Positions 51,678-64,000 of a stretch of DNA of 64,000 bases are shown piece by piece. The stretch covers positions 496,001-560,000 of the forward strand of contig OY282446.1 in the NCBI GenBank assembly GCA_958295975.1, written 5' to 3'. The notes beneath the pieces were generated by a model. That model searched no databases. It was given only the letters and a program-made list of their open reading frames with translations, and was not told the origin of the DNA. This stretch comes from Tepidiformaceae bacterium (GTDB lineage Bacteria; Chloroflexota; Dehalococcoidia; Tepidiformales; Tepidiformaceae). Numbering within the stretch: the stretch's first letter is position 1; each line of letters begins with the position of its first letter. Both the position numbers and the translations under genes were made by a program.

Positions 51678-52873
51678 CGACCATGACCGGCGGTCTGCCG
51701 CCGCCCGCGCCCACGCCGCTCTTCTTCCGTCGCGGCTTCCGCAACCTGCTGGCGCAGGGCGTCTACGTGGGCGTCACGGCGCTGGTCATCTTCTACGTGG
51801 TGCAGGCGCTGGGCGGGCGCGAGTACGGCTTCGGCTTCCTCAACCAGCCCGCCGCCTTCGACGTGGGCAACCAGTGGCTCATCAACGTGGACGGCACGAC
51901 CAACACGCGCTTCACCATGTACCTGGTGGGCATCTGGGCGACGGCGCGGGTGGTGATGGTCACGCTTCTGCTGTCCACGGTGCTGGGCGTGGCGGTGGGA
52001 GTGGCGCGGCTCTCCCCGAACTGGCTCCTCTCGAAGATGGCCATGCTGTTCGTGGAGATATTCCGCAACATGCCCCTCTTCGTGCAGATCGTGCTGTGGT
52101 ACGCGATCGTGCTCTTCGGCCTGCCGCAGATACAGAACGCGCTCGACCTCGGCGACACCTTCTTCCTCTCGAACCGGGGCATCGCCGTTCCCTGGCCGGA
52201 GCCGGACGGGGGCCTCTACGGCGGACCGGAGTGGCTGACGGCGGTGTGGGCGGCGGCGGTGGCGGCGGCGGCGGTGGCGGCCTGGTTCGTGCGGCGGCGG
52301 CGGCAGGAACTGGAGCGCGAAACGGGGCAGCCGCATTACCCCAACCGCTGGGGCATCCGGCTGTTCGCGGGGGGAGCGCTGGTCAGCTTCCTGGCGCTGG
52401 GACTGCCGCTCACGATCGACGTGCCCGTGCTCAGCGGCACGGACTACGCGGAGGGGCTGACGCTGCGCCCGGAGTTCACGGCGCTGACGCTGGGGCTCAC
52501 CATCTACACGGCCTCGTTCATCGCGGAGATCGTGCGCGCCAGCATCCAGGCCCTGCCGAAGGGGCAGACGGAGGCGGCCAACGCCATCGGCCTCTCCGGC
52601 TACCAGCGGCTGACGCTGGTGATCCTGCCGCAGGCGCTGCGCCAGATGATCCCGTCGGTGACGAACCAGTACCTGAACGCGAGCAAGAATTCGAGCCTGG
52701 CCTACGGCGTGTCCTACGCCGACCTGTTCTTCGTGGCGAACATCATCCAGAACAAGATCGGGCACGCGGTGGAGGTGTTCGCGCTGATCATCGTCACCTA
52801 CATGCTCATGTCGCTGGCCATCTCGGTGGTCATGAATTTCCTCAACTCGCGCCTGACGCTGACGCGGGTGTAG
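51674..52873 (+). CDS. aapQ: Amino-acid ABC transporter permease 1
   Basis: A 399-residue membrane subunit with about eight helices and the large insert typical of AapQ/BztB. The ABC permease signature is ALPKGQTEAANAIGLSGYQRLTLVILPQALRQMIPS, which contacts the ATPase. VEIFRNMPLFVQIVLWY is the conserved helix. The ATG is overlapped by the mini-ORF stop. An Ala/Val-rich stretch near residue 195 is a low-complexity membrane helix. Confidence 0.95.
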   Translation: MTTMTGGLPPPAPTPLFFRRGFRNLLAQGVYVGVTALVIFYVVQALGGREYGFGFLNQPAAFDVGNQWLINVDGTTNTRFTMYLVGIWATARVVMVTLLLSTVLGVAVGVARLSPNWLLSKMAMLFVEIFRNMPLFVQIVLWYAIVLFGLPQIQNALDLGDTFFLSNRGIAVPWPEPDGGLYGGPEWLTAVWAAAVAAAAVAAWFVRRRRQELERETGQPHYPNRWGIRLFAGGALVSFLALGLPLTIDVPVLSGTDYAEGLTLRPEFTALTLGLTIYTASFIAEIVRASIQALPKGQTEAANAIGLSGYQRLTLVILPQALRQMIPSVTNQYLNASKNSSLAYGVSYADLFFVANIIQNKIGHAVEVFALIIVTYMLMSLAISVVMNFLNSRLTLTRV

Positions 52874-52886
52874 GGAGGAGCGAGCG

Positions 52887-54116
52887 ATGACGGAACCGGT
52901 GGCGGGCGCGCGCAAGGTGGTGCTGCCGCCGCATCGCGTGCGCGCGCAGCGCCCCCTGGGGACGCGGGCGCGCGAATGGACGCGCGAGAACCTCTTCCCC
53001 TCGCCCGCGCAGGCGGTGGTGACGCTGCTCGCGCTGGCCTTCGCGACGGCGATCGTGGCCCTCGCCGTCTACCTCGTGCTCGCGGCCGAGTGGCGCGTGA
53101 TCACGGTCAACCGCTGGCTGCTGTTCGCGGGCGGCTTCCCCCAGGACCAGGAGTGGCGGCTGTGGGTGAGCGTGGCGCTGGTCTTCCCCCTCATCGGGGC
53201 GGCCTTCGGGCTCTGGGCCAGCCTCGGGCGGCGCGACCTGCTGTTCATGGCGCTGGCCGCCGGGTTCCTGTTCTTCCTCGCCAGGCACGGGGACGCGGGC
53301 TGGGCCTCGACGGTGTGGGTGGCGGGCTCGCTGGCGCTCTTCTTCGCGGGCTACCTGGTCTGCCGCCTGGTCCCGCGGGAGCCGGGGCGCGCGCGCTCGA
53401 TCGCGACCTGGACCGCGGGCGGCGCGCTGGCGCTGGCGCTGCCCGCCGTGCTGGCCGTGCTGATGGCGGCGGGGGGCGCGCGCACGAACGAATTCAGCGG
53501 CTTCATGATGAACCTGATCCTCGCGCCCGTGGGCATCGCCGGGGGGCTGCTGCTGGCCATCCCGCTGGCGGTGGGGCGGGCCTCCTCGCTGCGCGCCGTC
53601 TCGTGGACGTGCACGGCCTACATCGAGCTCATCCGCGGGGCGCCGCTGATCGGCTGGCTGTTCGTGGCCCTGTTCATCCTCGAGGACGTGATCGCGGGCG
53701 ACCTGATCGTGCGCACGATGGTGGTGCTGGCGGTGTTCACCTCCGCCTACATCGCGGAGTACATCCGCGGGGGGCTGCAGGCGCTGCCGCACGGGCAGAC
53801 GGAGGCGGCGCAGGCCGTGGGGCTGGGGCGAACGCGCACGCTGCAGCTGGTGGTGCTGCCGCAGGCGCTTCGCATCTCCATCCCGCCCATCGTGGGGCAG
53901 GCCATCAGCCTCTGGAAGGACACCGCCCTGATCTCGGCCATCCTGCCCCTGCGCGAGCTGGTGGGGAACTCGAAGGCCGCCATCGCGCAGCCGGAGTTCA
54001 TCGAGAACCGCATCGAGGTCTACGTCTTCGCGGCGGTGCTGTTCTGGATCGTGGCCTTCGTCATGTCGCGCGTCTCGCAGCGCATGGAACGCTCGCTGGG
54101 CATCGGCGAGCGGTAG
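52887..54116 (+). CDS. aapM: Amino-acid ABC transporter permease 2
   Basis: A 409-residue partner permease (AapM/BztC type). The N-terminal region holds additional helices, and IELIRGAPLIGWLFVALFIL and ALPHGQTEAAQAVGLGRTRTLQLVVLPQALRIS are the conserved core and EAA loop. It starts 13 bases after aapQ with GGAGGAGCG upstream. Together with aapQ it forms the membrane channel. Confidence 0.95.
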   Translation: MTEPVAGARKVVLPPHRVRAQRPLGTRAREWTRENLFPSPAQAVVTLLALAFATAIVALAVYLVLAAEWRVITVNRWLLFAGGFPQDQEWRLWVSVALVFPLIGAAFGLWASLGRRDLLFMALAAGFLFFLARHGDAGWASTVWVAGSLALFFAGYLVCRLVPREPGRARSIATWTAGGALALALPAVLAVLMAAGGARTNEFSGFMMNLILAPVGIAGGLLLAIPLAVGRASSLRAVSWTCTAYIELIRGAPLIGWLFVALFILEDVIAGDLIVRTMVVLAVFTSAYIAEYIRGGLQALPHGQTEAAQAVGLGRTRTLQLVVLPQALRISIPPIVGQAISLWKDTALISAILPLRELVGNSKAAIAQPEFIENRIEVYVFAAVLFWIVAFVMSRVSQRMERSLGIGER

Positions 54117-54137
54117 GATTCGGAGAGGAGCGTGAGC

Positions 54138-54896
<759 letters not shown>

Positions 54897-54977
54897 CGCG
54901 CGGCGGTGGCGCGGAGCCGCCCCGACGGCGTACGCTCGGGCCATTCCCGCCCCGCGAGGGCCGCAGGAGCGAATGGC

Positions 54978-56255
54978 ATGGCGCTGGCCGATTTCAACCC
55001 CCTCGACCCGGAGACGCTGGAGTGCCCCTACCCCTTCTACGAGGCGCTGCACGCGGAGGCGCCGGTGCACATGGTGCCGCAGCTGGGGATGGCGGTGGTG
55101 AGCACCTACGACCTCATCCGCGAGGTGGTGCACGACCCCGCCACCTACTCCTCGGCCATGCCCACGGGCCCCGTCGACCTGCCGGGCATGGAGACGGGGC
55201 CGGAGGACGCGGAGCTCGCGGAGCTGCGCGCGCAGACGGCGCGCTCGAGCGCGCCCACGCTGCTGGCGGCGGACCCGCCCTGGCACGCGCGCTACCGCTC
55301 GCTCGTGAACAAGGCCCTCTCGGCGCGGCGCGTGGCCGGCATGGAGGGCTACGTGCGCGAGATCGTGACGGAGCTGATCGACGGCTTCATCGACGACGGC
55401 AAGGCCGATTTCACGAGCCAGTTCGCGGACGAGCTGCCGATGGCGGTGATCGCGGACCAGATCGGGGTGCCGCGCTCGGACCTGCGCGATTTCAAGAAGC
55501 GCGCGGACCTGGCCATCGGCGGCATCGAGCGCACCATTCCGCCCGAGGAGGAGCGCGAGGTGCTGCGCGCGGGGCTGGAGATGCAGGAGTACTTCCTGAT
55601 GCGCGCGGAGGAGCGCCGCCGCGATCCGAAGGACGACATCCTGACCACGCTGGCCACGGCCGAGCTGGAGACGGACGAGGGCCGGCGTCCGCTGAACGAC
55701 GCCGAGATCCTGAGCATCCTGCAGCAGCTGCAGGTGGCGGGGAAGGAGACGACCGCGCACATCATCGGGAGCGCGATGCTGCTGTTCATCGAGAACCCGG
55801 AGCAGCTGGCGAAGGTGCGCGCCAACCCGGAGCTGATCGGGAACATGACGGAGGAGGCGCTGCGCATGGAGTCGCCCGTGCGCGCGCTCTTCCGCACGAC
55901 CACGCGCGAAACCACGCTGGGCGGGGTGACGCTGCCCGCGAAGACGACGCTGATGCTCATCTACCACGCGGCCAACCGCGACGAGCGCGAGTTCGCGGAG
56001 GCGGCGCGCTTCGACGTGGAGCGCGAGAACGCGCGCAACCAGCTGGCCTTCAGCGCGGGGCCGCACTACTGCATCGGGGCGGCCCTGGCGCGGCTGGAGA
56101 TCCGCGTGGCCTTCGAGGAAGTGCTGCGGCGCATGACGAACTTCCGGCTCGACCCCGACCATCCCGCGCCGCGCCACGAGCCCAGCTACATCCTGCGCGG
56201 GCTGGAGGAGCTGCGCATCCTGTTCGACAAGGCGCCGGCGCCGGTTCCGGCGTAG
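54978..56255 (+). CDS. Cytochrome P450
   Basis: A 425-residue bacterial P450. The I-helix motif is VAGKETT, ExxR is EEALRMES, and the heme loop FSAGPHYCIG holds the ligand at about Cys365. It starts FNPLDPETLECPYPFYEALHAEAPV, the classical class I N-terminus. GCAGGAGC precedes the ATG; an earlier in-frame ATG at 54906 overlaps the transporter end region and is less likely. It is not closely similar to the first P450. No ferredoxin lies next to it, so it may share the one at 3518. Confidence 0.95.
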   Translation: MALADFNPLDPETLECPYPFYEALHAEAPVHMVPQLGMAVVSTYDLIREVVHDPATYSSAMPTGPVDLPGMETGPEDAELAELRAQTARSSAPTLLAADPPWHARYRSLVNKALSARRVAGMEGYVREIVTELIDGFIDDGKADFTSQFADELPMAVIADQIGVPRSDLRDFKKRADLAIGGIERTIPPEEEREVLRAGLEMQEYFLMRAEERRRDPKDDILTTLATAELETDEGRRPLNDAEILSILQQLQVAGKETTAHIIGSAMLLFIENPEQLAKVRANPELIGNMTEEALRMESPVRALFRTTTRETTLGGVTLPAKTTLMLIYHAANRDEREFAEAARFDVERENARNQLAFSAGPHYCIGAALARLEIRVAFEEVLRRMTNFRLDPDHPAPRHEPSYILRGLEELRILFDKAPAPVPA

Positions 56256-61012: not shown

Positions 61013-62056
61013 ATGGCGGACGGCGGCGCGGACGGGCTGATCGACGTTCCCGCGCTGGAACGCTTCCTCGCCGCGCGCGTGCCCGGCCCCGCGGCCCCCC
61101 TCGTCTGCGAACGGCACGTGGCCGGCTCCTCCAACCTCACCTACTACGTGACGCGCGGGGAGCGGACGTGGGTGCTGCGCCGCCCGCCCGCCGGCCCCCT
61201 GCTGCCGACGGCGCACGACGTGCTGCGCGAGCACCGCTTCCTGGCGGCGCTGCACGGGCGCGCGCGCACGCCCGCGCCGGTCGTCGCCTGCGAGGACGCC
61301 TCCGTCATCGGCGCGCCCTTCTACCTGATGGAGCGCTGCTTCGGGGCGATGCTGCGCGACGGCGTGCCCGCGGCCTACGACACGCCCGCGGGGCGGCGGC
61401 GCATCGCCGCTGAGCTGGTGGCGGCGCTCGCTGAGCTGCACGCCGTGGACTGGCGCGCGGCGGGGCTGCGGGGGCGCGAGGCGGGCTACCTCGAACGGCA
61501 GCTGCGCCGCTGGACCGGGCAGTGGGAGCTGACCCGCCCGCGCACGCGCGACCTGCCCGGCATCGACGGCATCGTGGCATGGCTGCGGGCGCGCCTGCCG
61601 GAAGACGCGGGCGCGACCGTGGTGCACGGCGACTACCGGCTCGACAACGTGATGTTCGGCGCGGACGAGCCGCGCGTGGTGGCCATCTTCGACTGGGAGA
61701 TGGCCACCATCGGGGACCCGCTGGCGGACGTGGGCTGGCTGCTCTCCTACTGGGGCGATCCGGGCGACCCGCCCCCGCCGCCCGGCTGGGAGGCGCCCGT
61801 GCACCTGAGCGCGGGCGAGGGCTTCCCCGCGCACGAGGAGTTGATCGCCATGTACGAGGAGGCGAGCGGGCGCTCCATGCGGCACGTCACCTTTTACCAC
61901 GTGTTCGCCGTGTTCAAGCTGGCCGTCATCCTCGAGGGGCTTTACATGCAGCATCTGGAGGAGACCGCGGCGAACCCCGACAGCGCGCGCTTCGAGTGGT
62001 TCGTGCCGGTGCTGGTGGAGCGGGCGCGGCGGCTGATGGCGGCGGCGGACGGTTAG
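61013..62056 (+). CDS. APH-family phosphotransferase, ACAD10/11 type
   Basis: A 347-residue kinase-like protein. VVHGDYRLDNVMF holds the catalytic residues and IFDWEMATIGDPLADVGWLLSYW the metal site, exactly the pattern of the kinase part of animal ACAD10/ACAD11. HVAGSSNLTYYV is the glycine-rich loop. GGGAGG precedes the ATG. Next to an acyl-CoA dehydrogenase, it likely phosphorylates 4-hydroxyacyl-CoA so that the dehydrogenase partner can eliminate phosphate. The role is inferred from the family and operon. Confidence 0.9.
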   Translation: MADGGADGLIDVPALERFLAARVPGPAAPLVCERHVAGSSNLTYYVTRGERTWVLRRPPAGPLLPTAHDVLREHRFLAALHGRARTPAPVVACEDASVIGAPFYLMERCFGAMLRDGVPAAYDTPAGRRRIAAELVAALAELHAVDWRAAGLRGREAGYLERQLRRWTGQWELTRPRTRDLPGIDGIVAWLRARLPEDAGATVVHGDYRLDNVMFGADEPRVVAIFDWEMATIGDPLADVGWLLSYWGDPGDPPPPPGWEAPVHLSAGEGFPAHEELIAMYEEASGRSMRHVTFYHVFAVFKLAVILEGLYMQHLEETAANPDSARFEWFVPVLVERARRLMAAADG

Positions 62057-62547
62057 GGCGCGACGGAGCGCACGAGCGCGCGCAGGTCGCCATCCTCCCA
62101 CGGGCCGAGGGCGGCGTAGACGGTCTCGCCGCCAGCGTCCATCACCACGAAGCCGGGCTGGTAGCGGATGCCGTGGGAGAGGGCGAAGGCCCCGCCCTCG
62201 TCGGTATCGCGGTCGACGGTGACGAACTCGATCAGCCCCGCGTACTCCTCCTGCAGGTCCGCCCACACGGGGCGGAGGCGTTCGCACTGCGGTCACCATT
62301 CGGTGTGGATGAAGTAGACCCGGGGCTGGGCCGCGACCGCGGCGGCGGGCGCTTCCGTGGCCGCGGCGGCAGTAGTCGTGGCGGGCGCCTGCGTCGTGGC
62401 GGCGGACGCCTCCGTGGCGGGCGCGGAGTCCGCGGCGGCCGCCTCCGGCGGCGACGGAGCGGCGGGCGTGTCGGCGCTTCCGCCGCAGGCGATCAGCAGC
62501 ACGGCGGCGAACGCGACGGCGGCGGCGATGATGGCGGGCGCGCGCAT
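62053..62547 (-). CDS. Thioredoxin-like lipoprotein with selenocysteine at the active site
   Basis: The minus strand encodes 164 residues when the TGA at 62293-62295 is read through. The start ATG at 62547 opens a signal peptide ending in LLIAC (Cys21, lipidated), then an Ala/Thr/Pro linker (residues 25-75). The domain follows: RVYFIHTEW-U85-PQC88, EFVTVDRD and QPGFVVMD, the thioredoxin fold with UxxC in place of CxxC. The same frame continues without another stop to 62053. Directly after the TGA, a 7-bp stem (bases 17-23 with 29-35 after the TGA) closes on the loop CGTGT, as expected for a bacterial SECIS element. It probably reduces or isomerises disulfides outside the cell membrane. A Cys-to-TGA sequencing error is the main alternative. 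Confidence 0.85.
62258..62278 (-). promoter_or_regulatory. SECIS-like hairpin downstream of the in-frame TGA
   Basis: On the minus strand TCCGCCC and GGGCGGA form seven uninterrupted pairs with a 5-base loop CGTGT. The loop begins 24 bases after the TGA, inside the usual 16-37 window, and carries G-U. GC-rich stems occur by chance here, so it supports the selenocysteine call without proving it. Confidence 0.7.
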
Positions 62548-62718: not shown

Positions 62719-62775
62719 GCGCGGCGCGCATTGACCGCGGACGGGGGGCGCGCGACACTCCCCCGGGAGAGGCCC

Positions 62776-64000
62776 ATGCCCCTGCCCCGCATCCGCTTCC
62801 GTTCCCGCGTCATTCTGGCGGCGCTGGCCCTCCTCCTGCTGGCGGCGGCGGGCAGCGCGGCGGCGGTCGATGGCCCGTCCGCGCCCGACGGCGGCGCGCA
62901 TCCGCGCCCGCATGTGTTCCCCGCGTTGCTGGCGGACAGCGTGGAGAACACGAGCGTCATCGCGCAGAACGACGGCGACGCGCCCTCCGTGATGGTGATG
63001 GACTTCCATACGCCGGGGGGCGTGCTCATCACCGCCGCGAGCCAGGTGTTCACGGACGTGCCGCCGGGCGGATCGCGCACGTTCGCGCACGCGCTCAACG
63101 GGGGGCTGGTGCCGGGCTTCCGCGGCGCGGGCACGCTCTCCAGCGACCAGCCCATGAACGCACTGCTGGCGCGGGAGATCACGGGGCGGGACGGCCAGCG
63201 CTCCTACTCCCTGCACACGGCCAGCGCGCGCGGCGGCACGCGCGTGGCCCTGCCCTACGTGGCCAACCGGCTGGAGGACGAAGCGACGGGGGACACGATC
63301 AACACGCGCCTGGCCATCGCCAACGCGGGCGAGCGCGTGGCCTGCATCCGCCTCACCTACGCCTTCTTCCCCAACCGCGGCAGGCTGGGGCCGGAGGGCC
63401 GGCGCACGGTGACGGATCGCGGGGCGCGCCACCGCGACTGCCCCGGCGGGGGCCGCCCCATCCCCCCCGGCGGCCAGCTCACGCTCGCGCCCACGCGCGT
63501 GGACGGCGCGCTGCCCATGCCCGCGGTGGCGCGCAACACGCTGGCGGCGGTGACCATCGACTCCACGGAGCTGATCACGGTGGCCGCCGACGTCTATCGC
63601 CGCGACGGCCTGCAGCTGGCCGCCTACGACGGCTTCCTCGTGGGAACGCGCGAATCGGCCACCGACGACGTTTCGACGCGCATGATCCTGCCGCTCGCGC
63701 TGAAGACGGCGGACGGCTTCTGGACCGAATACGCCTTCGTCAATCCCTGGAGCCAGCCCGCCACCGCGCGCATCACCTACACGGGCACGGCCGGCAGCGC
63801 ACGCACGCCCGTGCGCGTCACGGTGACGGTGGAGACGCCCGCGGGGGCGGCCCGCGGGCACAGCGTGTTCGACAGCGCGGACCTGCCCGCGGGCTTCCGC
63901 GGCACGGCGGTGATCGAATCCAGCCAGCCGCTGGCCGTCGTGCTGCTGCGCGGCAAGATGACGGAGGCGGGCAGCTTCGAGCGCGAACCCCCCTACGCGG
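62776..64000 (+). CDS. Large secreted protein, C-terminus outside the window
   Basis: At least 408 codons without a stop, running off the end. A signal peptide (RSRVILAALALLLLAAAGSAAA) is followed by repeated beta-type segments. Two similar regions include IAQNDGDAPSVMVMDFHTPGG and YAFVNPWSQPATARITYTG. Both look like Ig-like or similar extracellular beta domains. GGGAGAGG precedes the ATG. It is probably a surface or exported protein; the function is unknown. Confidence 0.8.
   Translation, partial: MPLPRIRFRSRVILAALALLLLAAAGSAAAVDGPSAPDGGAHPRPHVFPALLADSVENTSVIAQNDGDAPSVMVMDFHTPGGVLITAASQVFTDVPPGGSRTFAHALNGGLVPGFRGAGTLSSDQPMNALLAREITGRDGQRSYSLHTASARGGTRVALPYVANRLEDEATGDTINTRLAIANAGERVACIRLTYAFFPNRGRLGPEGRRTVTDRGARHRDCPGGGRPIPPGGQLTLAPTRVDGALPMPAVARNTLAAVTIDSTELITVAADVYRRDGLQLAAYDGFLVGTRESATDDVSTRMILPLALKTADGFWTEYAFVNPWSQPATARITYTGTAGSARTPVRVTVTVETPAGAARGHSVFDSADLPAGFRGTAVIESSQPLAVVLLRGKMTEAGSFEREPPYA

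Follow-up and report, generated by a model that had tools for sequence, protein, structure and literature searches.

Gene structure and predicted protein

The window, a stretch of 64,000 nt, spans positions 496001-560000 of a genome that is 2.40 Mb long and assembled as a single contig. On its minus strand, a gene at 62053..62547 runs from an ATG at 62547 to a TAA stop at 62055-62053 and would encode a protein of 164 aa with selenocysteine at position 85 (Sec85). The frame contains exactly one in-frame TGA, at 62295-62293 (codon 85), and a further 79 residues lie between it and the TAA. The translation of the minus strand from 62547 to 62053 reads MRAPAIIAAAVAFAAVLLIACGGS...HTEWUPQCERLRPVWADL...VAP-stop. 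A first-pass annotation, made from the letters of the DNA, had placed one frame at these coordinates, with a lipobox signal, an Ala/Thr/Pro linker and a thioredoxin-like domain, a TGA where the first catalytic Cys belongs, and 80 open codons behind it; all of these features were recovered here. The stop codon of a plus-strand phosphotransferase gene lies at 62054-62056, so that the two genes share four bases (62053-62056) at their 3' ends.

The lipoprotein signal peptide (62485..62547, minus strand) includes the lipobox LIAC (L18-I19-A20-C21); read by eye, VLLIAC fits the lipobox pattern [LVI][ASTVI][GAS]C, and lipoprotein signals are present in most relatives. It is followed by an Ala/Thr/Pro-rich linker (residues 22-74; 62326..62484, minus strand), which differs in sequence from the linkers of relatives, and by a thioredoxin domain (residues 75-164; 62056..62325, minus strand) matching PF00085 with E=1.2e-8 and 35.3 bits against a Pfam gathering cut-off of 23.5. 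The same architecture is seen in the homologues. The UGA codon (62293..62295, minus strand) supplies the leading catalytic residue of the W-U-P-Q-C active site, and the resolving Cys88 of the UxxC motif (62284..62286, minus strand) is Cys in relatives and Sec in the UxxU paralogues described below. Pro131 (62155..62157, minus strand), the invariant P57 of the domain alignment, occupies the position where thioredoxins have their cis-proline; the protein has both the UxxC motif, as WUPQC, and the conserved proline expected of a thioredoxin. In addition, an AlphaFold2 model of the domain has a mean pLDDT of 96.3 and the element order E-H-E-H-E-E-H, and its Foldseek matches in the PDB are thioredoxins, with TM about 0.8.

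Selenocysteine machinery of the host

The Sec reading of the first-pass annotation depended on Sec genes being present in the genome, and the search found them all: a tRNA-Sec with a TCA anticodon (69.6 bits), SelA at 211873-213189 (512.7 bits), SelB at 1400647-1402479 (288 bits) and SelD at 1262122-1263051 (346.8 bits), in genome coordinates. Control genomes give weak signals for tRNA-Sec and SelB; all four Sec genes here exceed the curated cut-offs. The host SelD carries an in-frame TGA of its own in SCGGUASK (L018:1531-1533), the usual Sec position of this protein. The SelD gene is thus itself a selenoprotein gene, and the genome holds at least two such genes.

Conservation of the TGA codon

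Stop codons are scarce at about 71% GC, and an open frame in the window sequence alone is therefore modest evidence. An antisense open frame of 1111 codons at 52842-56177 on the minus strand, opposite a cytochrome P450-like gene (54906-56255, plus strand), likewise indicates that an open frame says little about coding in a genome so rich in GC. Homologues with one internal TGA were searched for at class level in 294 genomes. They turned up in six of the seven sister species, within the same family also in genera g4, g5 and g9, and beyond it in family f2. In the sister species G251, of the same genus and with a genome of 1.9 Mb, selA is present and no copy of the Sec-thioredoxin lipoprotein was found. 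Among the aligned homologues, which share 24-63% identity with the window domain, the TGA occupies the same column in 32/32, within motifs such as WUPTC and WUPFC, and the protein downstream of it is under clear constraint. In the phylogenetic tree, which is built on a short domain and leaves many forks open, the window protein falls inside an all-Sec clade of 26 rows with a support of 99.

The relatives come from MAGs of environmental and sponge type, those with named records being Dehalococcoidia/Chloroflexi MAGs, and separate assemblies carry the TGA. This bears on whether the codon might be a nonsense mutation, or a miscall of TGC/TGT, in an ordinary WCPQC thioredoxin lipoprotein. TGA is indeed one base away from TGC, TGT and TGG, and Cys forms exist elsewhere; however, a pseudogene or an error does not account for the same TGA in many species, in three diverged paralogues and in separate assemblies, ahead of a constrained downstream protein. 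Since independent assemblies of many species share the codon, sequencing error is in effect excluded, and we regard the chance of either explanation as minute.

SECIS-like hairpin

A hairpin, UCCGCCC[CGUGU]GGGCGGA (62258..62276, minus strand), starts at base 17 past the UGA, which leaves 16 nt from UGA to stem and 23 nt from UGA to loop. Its seven pairs, GU-bearing loop and starting point are those that the first-pass annotation had described. Bacterial SECIS elements have been modelled with a loop of 3-9 nt, a stem of 4-16 bp, a G in the first two loop positions, a spacing of 16-37 nt and an MFE <= -7.5 (PMC13188914). The window hairpin, with a 5-nt CGUGU loop, 7 bp, a spacing of 23 nt and -12.7 kcal/mol, lies within these constraints.

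In single-sequence tests the hairpin is weak, owing to the high GC content and the constraint on the protein. Folded alone, the 19-nt hairpin reaches the above -12.7 kcal/mol with z = -3.68; a region of 51 nt folds no better than its shuffles (z = -0.35), about 17% of synonymous recodings also yield seven pairs, and the region-wide MFE against synonymous recoding gives a mean z of only -0.67. Because region-wide MFE was judged uninformative at high GC, comparisons at the codon level, of covariation, and between Sec and Cys forms were used instead. Rfam searches near the gene returned sub-threshold chance matches only.

A hairpin 16 nt past the UGA is common to 22 subfamily members and identical in most of them. 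Codons that fall within it do not vary (Leu+6 is CUC in 21/21, Pro+8 CCC in 22/22 and Val+9 GUG in 22/22), whereas nearby codons for the same residues vary, with CUG, UUG or CUA at Leu+13, mostly GUC at Val-8, and CCG, CCC or CCA at Pro-10. In other subfamilies the stem is preserved with different letters and GU is retained in the loop, as in GGCCCGU[CGUGN]ACGGGCU, AGCCUGU[CGUGA]ACAGGCU, and GCCCAU[GGUUC]AUGGGC or GUCCAU[GGUUC]AUGGAC with the loop at +27. MAFFT misaligned such short hairpins, and they were compared as gapless 19-mers counted directly. When the 21 distinct hairpins are taken together, standard pairs fill 136 of 147 pair cells; 2000 shuffles gave a mean of 106 and a maximum of 118. 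Two-sided changes are numerous, and sliding the partners by one base lowers pairing to 47-49%. Stem letters that change while pairing is kept, together with a loop that keeps its GU, are the covariation expected of a bacterial SECIS. Meanwhile, hairpins of >=6 bp follow 86% of Sec codons but 46% of Cys codons, and GU occurs in the loop after 92% and 38%, respectively. The SECIS role of the hairpin, as judged from sequence comparison, is thus supported by conservation and covariation. The conserved TGA codon and the conserved, covarying hairpin together put the observation beyond chance.

Exchange of Sec and Cys and its link to selA

In a phylum-wide search, lipoprotein thioredoxins were found with either Cys or Sec at the active-site position, and the Cys that the first-pass annotation had proposed to look for in homologues stands at the TGA site in other genomes. 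On the tree, L087 and L093 (WCGSC) adjoin L098 (WUGSC), and L090 (WCPKC) adjoins L089 and L086 (WUPxC). Among 33 genomes sampled phylum-wide, selA is over the cut-off in 28/28 with the TGA form and in 1/5 with only the Cys form; no formal p-value is claimed for this link, since the genomes are related and the motif was not read for about ten of the 28, which came from a table. At class level, selA is over the cut-off in 19 of 22 TGA-bearing genomes, and the exceptions (G265, G273 and G284) are drafts of 80-83% completeness in which selA is missing or fragmentary.

These data also bear on the identity of the inserted residue, which the open frame alone does not decide. Several results speak against UGA being recoded as Trp or passed by general readthrough: aligned homologues show Cys at the site and not Trp, TGA terminates 23 of the 82 stop-terminated ORFs (defined heuristically) in the studied loci, the genome has a complete set of Sec genes, a covarying SECIS accompanies the codon, and TGA forms track selA. 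Decoding other than as Sec is therefore very improbable. With UGA read as Sec, the locus is in all likelihood a functional gene for a selenoprotein lipoprotein, as far as genome data can tell.

Three of the Cys forms, L092, L094 and L095 (WCTVC, WCAVC), retain, in the usual position, a hairpin resembling a SECIS, such as GCCGCU[CGUGC]AGCGGC at +27, and the genome of L095 is without selA despite the retained hairpin. Such hairpins are possibly relics of a change from Sec to Cys.

Tandem paralogues and the UxxU copy

In sister genomes the gene occurs as three tandem paralogues; these have diverged to about 50% identity, and all three contain TGA. In the third, both active-site positions are TGA (DTUGPUN or DTUPPUN), giving a UxxU thioredoxin that is conserved in seven genomes (L051:7372-7644, minus strand; L052:7801-8073, plus; L053:7426-7698, minus; L054:8367-8639, plus; L055:8233-8505, plus; L056:7246-7518, minus; and L077). 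The UxxU copy has a single hairpin, 23 nt past the first UGA and about 14 nt past the second. We consider it an even chance that these genes represent an undescribed, Chloroflexota-wide family of lipid-anchored selenothioredoxins, which has multiplied into tandem trios and given rise to a thioredoxin of the diselenol (UxxU) type. If so, one SECIS must serve two UGA codons 9 nt apart in the UxxU copy, and the cells would possess several surface thioredoxins of graded redox potential.

Comparison with known selenoproteins

Sec-thioredoxin with UxxC (PF00085) is a listed family in a 2026 inventory, and the window protein resembles it in domain family, in the UxxC motif and in Sec as the nucleophile, but differs in being an exported lipoprotein with a long linker (PMC13188914). 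The word lipoprotein is not used in that inventory, the lipid-anchored subfamily is not among its entries, and UxxU is given for the Prx-like, NF041115 metal-binding and FmdB families and not for PF00085 (PMC13188914). The window protein passes the cut-off of no NCBIfam model: for the thioredoxin equivalog TIGR01068 it scores 28.2 bits against a cut-off of 96.8, NF006898 is also far below its cut-off, and NF047660 (HUIPC motif thioredoxin-like selenoprotein) and SaoT (NF040730) give no match. NF047660 and SaoT are likewise short Sec thioredoxin-like proteins with UxxC; the UxxU paralogue scores only 13 bits against their cut-offs of 105 and 65, respectively.

Trx-like selenoproteins are common in marine surveys, where the GOS clusters Trx-like 1 (COG0526) and Trx-like 3 (cd02950-like) are UxxC Trx-fold selenoproteins from metagenomes, with no mention of a Chloroflexi source (PMC2398784). 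Compared by description, these clusters may include relatives of the window family. In the open-licence literature on SAR202 and Chloroflexota selenoproteins, we found no description of a lipid-anchored family. The kind of protein, a Sec-thioredoxin with UxxC, is thus known; less usual is the lipid-anchored subfamily, with its UxxU members. Through it the bacterial selenoproteome would gain an exported branch with a lipid anchor, in a phylum rich in uncultivated members; genes of this sort are likely to be split or overlooked by standard annotation. In addition, Sec, Cys and UxxU forms occur in the family as a natural series built on a single scaffold, some with the SECIS and some having lost it. 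Such a series lends itself to asking why Sec persists beyond the cytoplasm and by what means a single SECIS might decode two neighbouring UGAs.

Proposed function and gene neighbourhood

Fold and motif point to thiol-disulfide exchange, and the lipobox would place the protein outside the cytoplasm. The first-pass reading of a membrane-anchored selenothioredoxin is therefore supported, the anchoring by the lipobox and the reductase function by the family. With the recoding case, fold, lipobox, Sec machinery and a DsbD_TM-family protein established by computation, a working scheme can be proposed. SelB and tRNA-Sec would insert selenocysteine at UGA codon 85, directed by the hairpin beginning 16 nt further downstream. 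After export and putative lipidation, the linker would hold the Sec-thioredoxin (UPQC) at the outer face of the cytoplasmic membrane, where the Sec85 selenolate most likely acts on extracytoplasmic proteins by attacking their disulfides or other substrates of the oxidised thiol or peroxide kind; Cys88 would then resolve the selenenylsulfide. Electrons from the cytoplasm would return via a CcdA/DsbD-type carrier, for which the DsbD_TM-family protein encoded in the genome is a candidate.

Proteins of the ResA/TlpA/StoA/CcmG type place a Trx fold on a membrane anchor outside the cytoplasm and are re-reduced through CcdA/DsbD, likely the same working arrangement as that of the window protein. However, they are Cys proteins with AhpC-TSA/redoxin-type domains and usually a transmembrane helix, whereas the window protein has a classical PF00085 domain, Sec and a lipobox.

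The window locus itself encodes no conserved redox partner next to the gene, and no Dsb or Ccm genes adjoin it. Its neighbours are unrelated (an acyl-CoA dehydrogenase, an APH phosphotransferase, a divergent protein without a Pfam match, and ABC/FecCD transport), and the reductase role is consequently drawn from knowledge of the family; taken alone, we hold it to be reasonably probable. An oxidase or isomerase, or a protein handling metals or peroxides, is a somewhat unlikely alternative for a real Sec lipoprotein. The Trx fold serves many reactions, and, besides the lack of adjoining Dsb or Ccm genes, the neighbours differ in other genera (a GrdB/PrdB-like selenoprotein in one, a TlpA-like redoxin with DUF3179 in another); on the other hand, the nearest family is the canonical PF00085 thioredoxin and the genome has the DsbD_TM carrier. 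The distant branch L066 is consistent with extracytoplasmic redox work, since its copy of the gene is preceded by the TlpA-like redoxin and the DUF3179 protein.

The divergent neighbour at 62731-64000, which runs beyond the window, encodes about 555 aa and is conserved across the genus. In another genus, the Sec-thioredoxin gene is directly followed by one for a GrdB/PrdB-like protein whose frame also contains a TGA (PAUPDCC; L057:7466-7966, minus strand), placing two selenoprotein genes in a row.
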